From: Armatimonas rosea
GTDB lineage: Bacteria > Armatimonadota > Armatimonadia > Armatimonadales > Armatimonadaceae
Assembly (NCBI RefSeq): GCF_014202505.1
Contig: NZ_JACHGW010000003.1
Coordinates: 372,001 to 436,000 of the forward strand
Direction of reading: 5' to 3'
DNA length: 64,000 bases
Shown here: positions 8,494 through 58,369 of the stretch, one piece after another
Position numbering within the stretch: position 1 is the stretch's first letter
Layout of the letters: each line of letters begins with the position of its first letter
The notes under the pieces: generated by a model
Seen by the model: the letters and a program-made list of their open reading frames with translations, nothing else
Databases searched by the model: none
What the model was told of the DNA's origin: nothing
Position numbers and translations under genes: made by a program

Positions 8494-9759
8494 TTACTCA
8501 GCTGGCGCCGAGCCGCCGCGGCGCTCGGCGTAGGCGTGCTCAGCAGGGACGGTCACCAGCTCGCGCTCGGGGAAGCGGAGCGCGGCCAAGAAGCCCCCAA
8601 AGACACAGCCACCGTCGAGGTTGACCGTATTATTCACAAAGCGGATCTCGTCTTGTGGCGTGTGACCGTAGCAGATCAAGGGGCCAGAGTCCCCGTTTTC
8701 GCGCTCGGCGGCCCAGTCGTGGCGGAGCGGCATGCCATCGGGCGCGAAGCCGCGGACATCCCCAAAGCGCGTGAAGCGGGTGATAAAGTCTGAGCTCTGC
8801 CCCAGCATGTCGTCGCGAATCCCCGCGTGCGCCACCGCGAGCCTGCCCTCCGCGAGCACAAGGTGCACCGGCTGGGGCGCGAGGTAGGCCAGGATATCCA
8901 GCGTGAGCCGCTCGCGCTCCTTCTCGGGCATCCCCAGGAGCTGCTCCTCGGTTAAATCTAGGCCGTGGGTGCGCTGGACCTTTCCGCCCTGGAGCATACG
9001 AAAGAGCTTGTCATCGTGGTTGCCGGGGACAAAGAGGGCCTTGTCCGCCGCGACCAGGTCACAGACAAACCGGAGGACGCCCGGCGAGTCGGGGCCACGG
9101 TCGGCGAGGTCCCCCACAAAGACCGGGACGCGGCCCGTGGGGTGGGTGCTCTCGTGGTCGTAGCCGAGCTTTGTGAGCAGGCTCTTGAGCTCGGGGAGGC
9201 AGCCGTGCACATCGCCGATCACATCGAAGGCGGGCGCGGCGACAGCACCGGGCGTGGTCTGGACGGTCACCGTGTCTTGTTGCTCCGGGGTGAGGACATG
9301 GAGCGCGGCAAGGCGCGTGTCCTTGGCCAGCTCGCGCAGGGCCTGCTCCAGAGTCGCCCGGTGGCGCGTCACCACTTTCTCCCCGACAGAGCGCTCTGTA
9401 CGCAGGGAGTCGCGCCGGATCGCCTCGTCGAGCGGGACATCGAAGGCAACCACGACCACGGGAACCCGCGCCTCTTGGGCAAGCGCGATCAGCCGATCCC
9501 GCGCCCCCGGCTTGAGAGCGGTTGAGTCCGCGACTGTGAGGCGGCGGTTCTTGAGCCGGAGCGCAATCCACTGGTGAAAGAGCGCAAAGGCATCGTCGTT
9601 GGCGCTCTGCGATGCGGCACTGTCCACGACCATCTCACGGCACTGGTCGCTGGAGACAAGCTGGGAGGGGAGAAAGTGCCGCCGCGCCCAGGTCGATTTG
9701 CCCGAGCCCGACGCGCCACACAGAACGATCAAGCAGACTGGGGGGAAGTTGAGTGTCAT
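8494..9759 (-). CDS. polynucleotide kinase-phosphatase (Pnkp-like, no ligase domain)
   Basis: A 421-residue two-domain protein. The N-terminal P-loop kinase has GASGSGKST (residues 15-23) and resembles the 5'-OH polynucleotide kinase of bacterial Pnkp. From about residue 175 there is a calcineurin-like metallophosphoesterase with GDVHGC, GDLADRGPDS, GNHDDK, AHAGIR and YGHTP, plus the NLDGGCVFGG end. Bacterial Pnkp normally continues into a ligase/adenylyltransferase domain and pairs with Hen1; both are absent here. ATG 9759 is chosen over GTG 9762 because TACAAT lies 7 nt before it. Likely role: end-healing of broken RNA or DNA, or 2',3'-cyclic phosphate removal. Confidence 0.85.
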   Translation of the reverse strand: MTLNFPPVCLIVLCGASGSGKSTWARRHFLPSQLVSSDQCREMVVDSAASQSANDDAFALFHQWIALRLKNRRLTVADSTALKPGARDRLIALAQEARVPVVVVAFDVPLDEAIRRDSLRTERSVGEKVVTRHRATLEQALRELAKDTRLAALHVLTPEQQDTVTVQTTPGAVAAPAFDVIGDVHGCLPELKSLLTKLGYDHESTHPTGRVPVFVGDLADRGPDSPGVLRFVCDLVAADKALFVPGNHDDKLFRMLQGGKVQRTHGLDLTEEQLLGMPEKERERLTLDILAYLAPQPVHLVLAEGRLAVAHAGIRDDMLGQSSDFITRFTRFGDVRGFAPDGMPLRHDWAAERENGDSGPLICYGHTPQDEIRFVNNTVNLDGGCVFGGFLAALRFPERELVTVPAEHAYAERRGGSAPAE

Positions 9760-9820
9760 CACAGGAATTGTATCGTCTGAGAGAGGCGGCGTGGTAAAAG
9801 TCCCGCCGATCAGAACGGCC

Positions 9821-9847
9821 GGACGGGAGAGCCTCTGGCTACGAAGG
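9821..9847 (+). repeat. left REP-like arm, 27-bp perfect inverted repeat
   Basis: This 27-base sequence is the exact reverse complement of 10362-10388; the similarity extends imperfectly on both sides to roughly 60 bp (about 9801-9860). The arm itself folds: GAACGGCC (9813-9820) pairs with GGCCGTTC (9846-9853), and the inner AGCC-TCT-GGCT (9830-9840) is followed by AC, the complement of GT in the GTAG tetranucleotide. Confidence 0.85.
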
Positions 9848-9881
9848 CCGTTCCGGCCATGAAATTTTTTTTGGTTGCGTT

Positions 9882-10370
9882 TTGTCAGATTTGGGGAGTC
9901 TCACCCGTTATAGGGGTGTGGAAAAGCGACGACGAAATCATACAGAGCTGGCGGTGCATCTGGTCTGGACGACCTGGAAGCGCATGCCCCTGATCCGAAG
10001 TAGTGAGCTGGAGCGTAGCCTCTGGCGCGTGATACAGAACGAAGCAGAGATCCTAGGATGCTCGGTTCTCGCGATTGGAGGAATGCCAGATCACGTGCAC
10101 CTGGTTCTGGTGCAACCACCAAGCCTCTCTTTATCGAAACTGTTAAACCAGCTCAAAGGTGTTTCTTCGTCGGTGGCACGTACACAACTCGGCAGCGAGG
10201 CATTTTTTCAGTGGGCGGAAGGCTACTCTGCCTTCTCCCTGAGCAGCACGCACTGCCAGAATGCGATTGCCTATGTCCAGTCCCAGAAAGAGCACCACTC
10301 GCTTGAGACGCTCTGGGAGCGCTGGGAAGAAACCCCCGACCTAGAGCTATGGGCGGAACGCCCTTCGTAG
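9882..10370 (+). CDS. REP-associated tyrosine transposase (RAYT, Y1/HUH family)
   Basis: A 162-residue (or 150-residue) single-strand transposase of the IS200/IS605-related Y1 superfamily. The HUH motif is seen in GMPDHVHLVL, preceded by the typical HLVWTTWKRMPLI strand. The catalytic tyrosine is probably in the C-terminal AIAYVQSQKEHH helix. TTG 9882 is the longest start; GTG 9918 with TAGGGG just upstream is a plausible alternative. The gene is bracketed by long inverted repeats, and its TAG stop codon lies inside the right arm. RAYTs are domesticated-like transposases thought to spread REP palindromes; they usually occur once with flanking REPs, as here. Confidence 0.9.
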   Translation: MSDLGSLTRYRGVEKRRRNHTELAVHLVWTTWKRMPLIRSSELERSLWRVIQNEAEILGCSVLAIGGMPDHVHLVLVQPPSLSLSKLLNQLKGVSSSVARTQLGSEAFFQWAEGYSAFSLSSTHCQNAIAYVQSQKEHHSLETLWERWEETPDLELWAERPS

Positions 10371-10388
10371 CCAGAGGCTCTCCCGTCC
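10362..10388 (-). repeat. right REP-like arm, 27-bp perfect inverted repeat
   Basis: Exact inverted copy of 9821-9847. It contains GTAGCC-AGA-GGCT (10367-10379), i.e. GTAG at the foot of a small hairpin; characterised RAYTs recognise a GTAG tetranucleotide next to the REP hairpin. The transposase stop codon is part of this arm. Confidence 0.85.
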
Positions 10389-10409
10389 CCCCGTTCCAAT
10401 CGGGGGGGC

Positions 10410-11093
10410 TTATACCCACTCCAGGGTGGCATCGGGGAGGGCGTTGTTGAGCTCGTCGCAGACATCCTGCTCTTTGACATCGGGGCGCATGCGGATCGTC
10501 ACCAGCAAGACCCGGCGGCCATCGGGGTGGTCTTCGGTCTCGAAGCTGGAGACGGTCGCGCCGGCCTCGGTGAGGGCGGTAAGGGCTGCGCTGACCGCAC
10601 CCTTGTGTCGGTTGACCGTGATGGTCAGCGTGGTCTGGCGCTCGTTTTTATGGATCAGGTTCTCCGACCAGCGCCCGACACTCAGCGTGAAGAGCACCAA
10701 GAGAGTCGTGAACGTGGCGGTGGCCGGGTAGATTCCCCCCGCACCACAGGCGATCCCGATCGCGGCGACGATCCAGACGGTCGCGGCGGTCGTCAGGCCC
10801 CGTACCGAGAGCCCGCGGCGCAGGATCACGCCCGCCCCCAGAAAGCCAATACCGGTCACCACCTGGGCTGCGATCCGCCCCGGGTCGCCGCTGGGGAAGT
10901 GGATTCGGGTGAGCAAGCACGCCCCCAGGCAGACCAGAACGTGCGTGCGGAGCCCTGCCGAGTGGTTGGTCGCCTCCCGCTGCGCCCCGATAAAGCCCCC
11001 AAGGAGCGAGGCCAGGATGAGATAGCCCGCCTCGGTGTAGAAGGACAGGGCCTGCGGTTGAAGGAAAAAGTCCCACGGCGGACGCAAACTCAT
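10410..11093 (-). CDS. MgtC/SapB family membrane protein
   Basis: A 227-residue inner-membrane protein. About four or five hydrophobic helices occupy residues 20-150, with the family signature GGFIGAQREATNHSAGLRTH and the segment GIGFLGAGVILRRG..VRGLTTAATVW. A C-terminal ACT-like cytoplasmic domain follows (about 155-227). MgtC proteins are linked to growth at low Mg2+ and to control of P-type or F-type ATPases. ATG 11093 is preferred over ATG 11114 because the membrane-domain homology begins there. It is divergent from the S41 peptidase gene and convergent with the transposase. Confidence 0.9.
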   Translation of the reverse strand: MSLRPPWDFFLQPQALSFYTEAGYLILASLLGGFIGAQREATNHSAGLRTHVLVCLGACLLTRIHFPSGDPGRIAAQVVTGIGFLGAGVILRRGLSVRGLTTAATVWIVAAIGIACGAGGIYPATATFTTLLVLFTLSVGRWSENLIHKNERQTTLTITVNRHKGAVSAALTALTEAGATVSSFETEDHPDGRRVLLVTIRMRPDVKEQDVCDELNNALPDATLEWV

Positions 11094-16257: not shown

Positions 16258-16392
16258 CCTCTCCCTCGGTGAACGTGGGGCAATGGGGCGTCGTTCCTCC
16301 GCCGCGCCTTCGGCGGATAAATCTTGTACCGACGAGGAACGAGGAGGCGGCGCGAAGCGCCCCCTAGCCCCACGTTTACCGTGAGGGAGAGG
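16258..16392. repeat. palindromic element overlapping the 3' end of rfaE2
   Basis: The terminal arms CCTCTCCCTC..AACGTGGGGC (16258-16281) and GCCCCACGTT..GAGGGAGAGG (16367-16392) are nearly perfect inverted repeats with a small indel. The interior has CCGCC/GGCGG and GTTCCTC/GAGGAAC pairs. The right arm supplies the last codons (SPSR) and the stop of rfaE2. Confidence 0.7.
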
Positions 16393-28602: not shown

Positions 28603-28724
28603 CCGGCCTCATGGACGAGGCGGGCTCCGGGCTTCGCCCTACTGGCCTCCAGCCGCCAAGTCGCTCCGCGACATCGTAGCCGCAGGCTAGAAGCGGAGCG
28701 TGCCCGCCTCGTCCATGAGGCCGG
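28603..28724. repeat. palindromic element with 23-bp perfect terminal inverted repeats
   Basis: The arms 28603-28625 and 28702-28724 are perfect 23-bp inverted repeats (CCGGCCTCATGGACG.. at the left end). Inside are a GGGC-TTC-GCCC-type hairpin, CGCTCCGC (28662-28669) pairing with GCGGAGCG (28693-28700), and GTAGCC-GCA-GGCT (28676-28688), the same hairpin type as in the transposase arms. The right arm abuts the ispG -10 box. Confidence 0.8.
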
Positions 28725-57193: not shown

Positions 57194-58369
57194 TTACCTC
57201 CCCCCCATCCCCCGCTCAGCGGGGGGGACGAGAGGATGTTCCTTATATTCCCCCCGCCGGGCGGGGGTTAGGGGGGCAAGCCCTTTCAGGCGGGCGAGGA
57301 TCCGGGGATAGTTCACCGCGGCATCGTAGCGTTCGAGAGCGGCCTCGCGGGCGTTGCGGCCCAGGCGCAGGCGCAGGGCGTGGTCGGTGAGGAGGTGCTC
57401 AAGGGCTATCGCGAGCGCGGCGTCGTCCCCGACCGGCACGAGCTTGCCCGTCTCGTTGTCGATCACGGCCTCGGGGATCGCGGCGACTGCGGTGGTAATG
57501 ACCGGCAGGCCCGCGGCCATTGCCTCCAGGACCGCTTGCGGCAGGCAGTCGGCGCGGGTGGGGAAGACAAAGAGATCGGCCTCGGCAAAGAGGGTCCGCA
57601 GGCGCTCGGAGTTGGGGGTGACACCGTTATGAACCGTGATATTCTCCGTGGTGGCGAGCTCCGTGGCCTGGGTGACGAGGTGCAGGTGGGCGGTGCGGCG
57701 GACACTCTCCGGGAGGCGGGCGAAGGCGGTGAGCAGCGTGTCTCCGCCCTTGCGCACAAAATCTCCCCCGACAAACAGAATGTTGAGCGGCGCACCGGCG
57801 GCACGGGGCTGGCGCAGGGCGCGGGCGGCGTCCCAGGCGGCGATATCCACCCCGGGCGGGATCACAAAGACTTTATCGGCGGGCACCCCGTAGTCGGCGA
57901 CCAGCGAGTCCTTGGCCCACTGGCTCCAGGTGATGAGGCCCCGGGCCGCGGAGAACGCGCGCTGGTTGAGGCGGGCCTTGAGCACCTCGACTCGGCCGTT
58001 GCCCGGTGTGTGCCCGTAGTGGGCCCCAAGTCTATCGTACTGGAGCGGGGTGGCATCGAGGGAGATCAAACCAGGCGTCTTCTGGAGCATGCCTGCGGCC
58101 AGGAGCGCGGTGACCTGCGTGTGGAAGAAAAGCGCGTCAAAGCTCTGTCCGCGTAGTCCTAGATACGCTCCCAGTGAGGCTCGCAGGCTCCAGTTCGAGC
58201 GGACGCCGGGAAGCTTGGCCCAGGCACCGGGGGTGTTGTGGTAGGGGAGCTCCACAAAAGTGGGGTGCACCAGGCTATCGCTGGCGAGGGCTGCCTTGAG
58301 GTTCTTGGCGTGGGTCGCGTGGCCGAGGGAGTGCTCCAGCGCGAAGCCGAGCTTGAGGGTCGCAGACAT
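57194..58369 (-). CDS. glycosyltransferase, GT4 family, with repeat-encoded tail
   Basis: A 391-residue GT-B enzyme. N-terminal region LGFALEHSLGHATHAKNL, core LNILFVGGDFVRKGGDTLL, donor site ADLFVFPTRADCLPQAVLEAMAAGLPVITT and IDNETGKLVPVGDD. The last ~27 residues (LTPARRGEYKEHPLVPPAE..) are encoded by a C/G-rich hairpin repeat (about 57200-57285), so the original stop was probably lost when the repeat inserted. It starts 11 nt before the 128-residue gene on the - strand ends, in one operon with wecG. Confidence 0.9.
   Translation of the reverse strand: MSATLKLGFALEHSLGHATHAKNLKAALASDSLVHPTFVELPYHNTPGAWAKLPGVRSNWSLRASLGAYLGLRGQSFDALFFHTQVTALLAAGMLQKTPGLISLDATPLQYDRLGAHYGHTPGNGRVEVLKARLNQRAFSAARGLITWSQWAKDSLVADYGVPADKVFVIPPGVDIAAWDAARALRQPRAAGAPLNILFVGGDFVRKGGDTLLTAFARLPESVRRTAHLHLVTQATELATTENITVHNGVTPNSERLRTLFAEADLFVFPTRADCLPQAVLEAMAAGLPVITTAVAAIPEAVIDNETGKLVPVGDDAALAIALEHLLTDHALRLRLGRNAREAALERYDAAVNYPRILARLKGLAPLTPARRGEYKEHPLVPPAERGMGGR
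57209..57267. repeat. twin hairpin repeat in the tail of a glycosyltransferase gene
   Basis: Two hairpins with the same 7-bp stem: CCCCCGC-TCA-GCGGGGG (57209-57225) and CCCCCGC-CGG-GCGGGGG (57251-57267), flanked by further C-run/G-run pairing. They resemble short dispersed repeats that extend reading frames into tails like TPARRGEYKEH. Confidence 0.7.

Follow-up and report, generated by a model that had tools for sequence, protein, structure and literature searches.

Several systems built around a small tyrosine transposase have been described which resemble the locus reported here. TnpA-Y1 proteins of subclass 1.2 were reported as low-copy and without REPs, mostly from Cyanobacteria and Bacteroidetes (PMC6006769). 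In REPtrons, the gene of a class 2 TnpA (RAYT) is placed between two oppositely oriented copies of a palindromic repeat which is dispersed in the genome, the repeats also form inverted pairs (REPINs), and each gene has a family of its own. In TIRtrons, a tyrosine transposase (TIRYT) is enclosed by long inverted repeats which are unrelated to GTAG REPs and of which some are genomically repeated (PMC3733652); most TIRYTs belong to subclass 2.1 (Quentin et al. 2018, PMC6006769). Insertion sequences of the IS200/IS605 family carry a Y1 HUH transposase (Pfam PF01797) and have hairpin ends.

The locus analysed here lies in a window of 64,000 nt (the whole stretch of DNA that was examined, C3:372001-436000) of Armatimonas rosea and shares features with each of these systems. 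Its protein is like subclass 1.2 in the motifs DHVH and Y---Q--HH, in its length (~150 AA, compared to ~148 AA in the subclass) and in having few, dissimilar copies per genome, but it departs from the subclass as published (PMC6006769) by its arms and dispersed repeats and by an occurrence in more than ten phyla. All REPtron features named above are present, whereas the TnpA is of another class, a constant GT[AG]G foot is missing and each half-unit consists of three hairpins. The TIRtron layout is similar as well, but TIRYTs have the motif GGGGWSAS, the HTH C-terminal domain of class 2.1 is absent by Pfam from the window protein, and three covarying hairpins in REPIN pairs are undescribed for TIRtrons (PMC3733652). 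The ends of the module, which are inverted copies of a repeat, probably differ from those of IS200/IS605 elements, which are subterminal hairpins, and copies of an IS are near-identical and often accompanied by tnpB, in contrast to seven divergent tnpA genes in this genome. Taken together, the locus is probably a REPtron-like module of TnpA-Y1 subclass 1.2, whose TnpA would act on its own REPINs and whose promoter-like motif may connect it to a competence or DNA-processing regulon. The features of the module are as follows:

9793..9860, plus strand: left arm, a three-hairpin half-unit (repeat search, single-stranded DNA fold and covariance-model match)
9800-9824, 9830-9840 and 9846-9858, plus orientation: hairpins A, B and C of the left arm (DNA fold)
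9862-9884: A/T-rich tract directly 5' of the promoter-like motif (read from the sequence)
9885..9917, plus strand: promoter-like motif TCAGATTTGG-N7-CACCCGTTATAGGGGT
9918..10370, plus strand: tnpA, Y1 HUH transposase of subclass 1.2 type (Pfam, NCBIfam)
10349..10416, minus strand: right arm, a three-hairpin half-unit in inverted orientation, into which the 3' end of tnpA extends

A sequence-only reading of this locus had described perfect 27-bp inverted repeats with symmetry extending beyond them, arms able to fold, and a transposase stop codon embedded in the right arm, all of which was confirmed. The exact repeats (9821-9847 and 10362-10388) lie inside larger arms of 68 nt each (9793-9860 and 10349-10416), which are 87% complementary according to the repeat search, and the stop codon TAG (10368-10370) is within the right arm. 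Folded as single-stranded DNA, both arms gave three successive hairpins with z-scores of -1.9 to -3.0, and another copy folds likewise. The covariance model, built from 36 sequences including both arms of the window module, matched the left arm at 9800-9861 with 81.9 bits and the right arm at 10348-10409 of the minus strand with 82.6 bits. The fold, the model scores and the genome-wide recurrence described below show that the arms are not a product of chance. The start codon of tnpA is probably GTG at 9918 (150 AA) and not TTG at 9882 as given by the ORF tool, because positions 9885-9917 form the promoter-like motif which is also present 5' of unrelated genes.

Pfam found Y1_Tnp (PF01797; 75.7 bits, E-value 4.5e-21) as the only domain of the window protein, with no HTH C-terminal domain. 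The NCBIfam model for IS200/IS605 transposases (NF033573) was matched with 69.4 bits at a cut-off of 55, and that for REP-associated tyrosine transposases (REP_Tyr_transpos, NF047646) with 30.5 bits at a cut-off of 80. The protein contains DHVH and YVQSQKEHH, the latter of the Y---Q--HH type; judged by these motifs, its length and its low copy number, it is of the TnpA-Y1 subclass 1.2 type. The earlier identification as a RAYT of class 2 was rejected, since Y---Q--HH takes the place of Y---NP and the score for NF047646 is far below the cut-off.

The interval between left arm and start codon contains the motif TCAGATTTGG-N7-CACCCGTTATAGGGG. Allowing up to three mismatches, the pattern TCAGAT-N14-CCGTTATAGGGGC was found at 17 sites in the genome compared to one site for the reversed-pattern control. 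In a weight matrix search of a 1.26-Mb sample, the eight known sites scored 48-61 and the best control 10.7. Genes following the motif were identified by Pfam or NCBIfam and comprise all seven tnpA paralogues (one site weaker), all five DUF559 genes (PF04480; two sites weaker), two ComEA-type genes (TIGR00426 over cut-off), radC, rpsF followed by ssb, a YifB/ComM gene (616.7 bits, cut-off 362.4) and recQ (390.7 bits, cut-off 219.8). Three further motif genes have no obvious role in DNA metabolism: an ECF-sigma-like gene scoring below cut-off, a possible regulator (L173, C3:260216); a gene without Pfam family (L164, C2:1211134); and a gene for a PEP-CTERM-like secreted protein (L166, C4:75721). 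The congener genome (G001) had 14 pattern matches. Thirteen were examined, and an identifiable gene was found downstream of all except one, the gene families being mostly those of A. rosea: three ComEA-type genes, radC, recQ, three DUF559 genes and four tnpA genes, two of which are broken. The site L262 (G001:C145:9823) is without a clear gene directly downstream.

The motif was seen in this genus only; in other families a shared leader was not found and the arm abuts the start codon. A leader belonging to a mobile element or to the N-terminus of the protein was considered and dismissed, as the motif also precedes comEA, radC, rpsF and others. Preceded by an A/T tract and closely followed by a start codon or ribosome site, it occupies the place of a promoter, and we infer that it functions as one. 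It might further be a competence promoter: comEA, radC and ssbB are part of the core SigX regulon of streptococci (PMC5069739), and in Haemophilus parasuis, competence CRP-S sites are present at radC, comE1/comEA, comM and ssb (PMC5809987). The competence regulon is nonetheless a putative one, because dprA, checked in both species, is without the motif and comEC, comF and the pilus genes were not located. A literature search for natural transformation, IS200 and competence induction in combination returned nothing.

A different regulation is therefore to be weighed, which leaves the architecture of the module untouched. The motif could be a DNA-damage promoter or a general promoter of an alternative sigma factor, and co-expression of tnpA with com genes would then be incidental. 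The missing motif of dprA is in agreement with this, ssb, radC and recQ would equally fit a DNA-repair regulon, and the ECF-sigma-like, the PEP-CTERM-like and the Pfam-negative genes carry the motif too. Two comEA genes and comM/yifB are, however, hard to explain by repair alone, and the motif lacks the palindromic form of LexA sites. We regard this alternative as a serious one, although the odds are somewhat against it.

The DUF559 genes which follow the same motif appear to be in the same setting as tnpA. Four of five in A. rosea and all three in the congener are framed by inverted G+C-rich arms, with alignment scores of 25-98.5 in a wider search without separate calibration; the fifth gene of A. 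rosea scored 14.0, which is at background. In the 1.26-Mb sample, these arms were dispersed repeats as well, and most DUF559 genes had their own repeat family. The five loci (L156-L160) are C2:614557, C4:386066, C1:1181127, C4:839442 and C7:108267; one of the DUF559 genes occupies the same position, before argG, in the congener too. No publication on DUF559 with inverted repeats was found in the literature search.

The genome search for paired intergenic copies of the arm, suggested by the sequence-only reading, was performed. The nucleotide sequence of the module had 64 matches in its own genome of 6.33 Mb, mostly to the arms alone, and 36 aligned units displayed one architecture, consisting of hairpins A, B and C and a final AT. 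Hairpin A has a stem of up to nine pairs and a loop such as ATCAGAA or ATTGGAA, and is followed by a short linker; hairpin B reads AGCC-TNN-GGCT or has a longer AGCGC form, and the subsequent linker mostly ends in GAAG or AAAG; hairpin C is GGCC-GTTCC-GGCC with variants. At the foot position, GTAG was present in 16 of 36 units and mostly GCAG or CCAG in the remainder. The proposed guide GTAG is thus not conserved, and the coincidence of the tnpA stop with the TAG of this foot, although correctly noted for the window copy, is particular to that copy.

Compensatory substitutions were detected in all three helices: eight pairs were changed on both sides, and 95.5% of the cells were paired. The covariation score was 0.282, compared to 0.080 ± 0.011 for shuffled alignments (0/500) and ≤ 0.077 with the partners slid. 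Since an Rfam scan of positions 9500-10800 gave no match at E-values up to 1, the repeat is not a described RNA family. Using the covariance model, which was applied to 150 candidates in each genome, at least 136 half-units were found in A. rosea and at least 141 in the congener, and the arms are consequently not unique to this locus. Among the matches listed, all 54 adjacent pairs (12 in A. rosea, 42 in the congener) were convergent, a plus unit being followed by a minus unit, with spacers of 6-27 nt except for one of 49 nt and one pair which touches. The half-units therefore occur in a REPIN-like layout, and the window module is the same plus/minus pair with promoter and tnpA standing in the place of the spacer. 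The earlier notion of a REP-transposase-REP module holds insofar as the arms stem from a dispersed family of inverted pairs, as in REPtrons, but the arms are three-hairpin units and not single REP hairpins.

All seven Y1_Tnp genes of A. rosea are framed by inverted arms. The paralogues are ~38-66% identical, the best pair reaching 64-66%, and near-identical copies are absent. When the arms of the seven tnpA and five DUF559 genes were searched in the 1.26-Mb sample, 161 repeat places were obtained, most of which matched the arms of a single gene. The window gene shared places with T1634, its closest paralogue, T1634 did so with T820 as well, and T923 with one DUF559 locus; closely related paralogues thus have repeat families in common. 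Reversed arms used as control queries gave no match, and random genomic pieces gave 4-23 non-self matches per set of 23 queries. An unbiased stretch of 800 kb contained 101 repeat places, which by extrapolation would amount to roughly 800 in the genome. Copies of four other families are located in the window at 2084-2199 (T1548), 16267-16388 (T923/D839), 28606-28721 (T822) and 57199-57277 (D614). Six of the nine genus-level proteins formed one radiation in the tree (support 88/87), and T177, T1548 and T923 were on separate lineages. Co-divergence of arms and proteins was not retained as an argument: across the seven paralogues, the correlation of arm with TnpA divergence was weak and not significant (Spearman 0.36, p = 0.11).

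The two genes flanking the window module are conserved and adjacent in the congener (81% identity for the mgtC-like protein), where the orthologous site holds only a short nested hairpin of hairpin-A-like sequence, without tnpA. Module T177 occupies corresponding positions in the two species and retains its arms and promoter, but the congener gene has a large internal deletion. The other complete tnpA genes of the congener (L264, L266) are at positions matching none in A. rosea. The empty site, the broken T177 copy and the non-matching sites indicate that the modules are polymorphic between the species and decay in place. Mobility, which had been put forward as a possibility, gains indirect support from the orthologous site without the gene, but neither insertion nor excision was directly seen. 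The decayed modules noted are L015 (C1:923756) and L256 (G001:C87), which have internal deletions and still keep arms and promoter, and L265 (G001:C68), which has a broken frame.

The same comparison bears on the reading of the module as a small IS of the IS200/IS605 type with inverted ends, moved as a whole to this day, with the REPINs as non-autonomous, MITE- or PATE-like deletion derivatives. It would account for the NCBIfam assignment over cut-off, for the congener site with a hairpin only and for the common ends and orientation of modules and REPINs. Identities of ~38-66% among the paralogues are nevertheless far from the mean of 99.4% in subclass 1.1 (PMC6006769), one module has the same position in the two species but a decayed gene, and each paralogue mostly has its own repeat family. 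Hence, we consider an ordinary IS unlikely.

Homologues from other phyla extend the picture. The Y---Q--HH motif is present in 77 of 80 named homologues, and 60 of the 77 homologues with enough flanking sequence, from more than ten phyla, had inverted arms above the 99% null: Armatimonadota 7/8, Verrucomicrobiota 7/7, Planctomycetota 11/13, Bacteroidota 20/28, plus others. Random windows in the same loci exceeded the threshold in 0.7% and never reached a score of 30. In a genome of another family of the same order (G014), one tnpA arm had 64 matches, many in plus/minus pairs. Both results argue that flanking arms generally accompany subclass 1.2 and that, at least in Armatimonadota, these arms are dispersed repeats.

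That the repeats are host structures under selection, such as terminators or RNA stabilisers, into which transposase genes were inserted as passengers, is improbable. Stable hairpins and a depletion in coding sequence (41% of the repeats in crude ORFs, compared to 94% of random 70-mers) would suit such a role; passengers, on the other hand, would neither each match their own repeat family nor explain the arms around homologues in many phyla. Least probable of all is a classical class 2 RAYT/REPtron with GTAG-guided REPs, for which the REPtron-like layout, the REPIN-like pairs and the GTAG of the window copy could be cited, but which conflicts with Y---Q--HH, the NF047646 score, the variable foot and the three-hairpin units.

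For the REPtron-like module of subclass 1.2, which we favour, the following mechanism is proposed on the basis of hairpin covariation, the pairing of genes with their own families and the established chemistry of IS200/IS605 and TnpA-REP systems. TnpA would recognise its own half-unit as folded single-stranded DNA, and the catalytic tyrosine would nick and rejoin this half-unit, whereby REPINs would be copied or relocated; REPINs would represent a short version of the module from which the gene is missing. With less certainty, the shared motif would place tnpA and the DUF559 nucleases in a competence or DNA-processing regulon. If the motif is indeed a promoter of this kind, expression would coincide with DNA uptake or recombination, when single-stranded DNA is abundant. 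As a tentative and rather doubtful extension, Y1 transposases which recognise hairpins might be induced along with the uptake machinery, together with DUF559 nucleases, each enzyme being tied to an inverted hairpin repeat family of its own. Both might act on the single-stranded DNA that uptake generates, and REPINs might thereby spread through, or edit, transformed DNA.

The locus bears on the question of when domesticated REP-type transposases act and on which single-stranded DNA. A TnpA subclass described as lacking repeats is widely framed by them, and the three covarying hairpins of the repeat unit, together with the cognate enzyme, are well suited to studies of binding and structure. The regulatory link to DNA uptake is testable and is common to a second nuclease family, DUF559, in a similar setting. 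The module is REPtron-like, although its TnpA subclass had so far not been connected with repeats; unexpected is its predicted link to DNA uptake, which suggests that transposases of the domesticated kind may be active during the uptake of foreign DNA.
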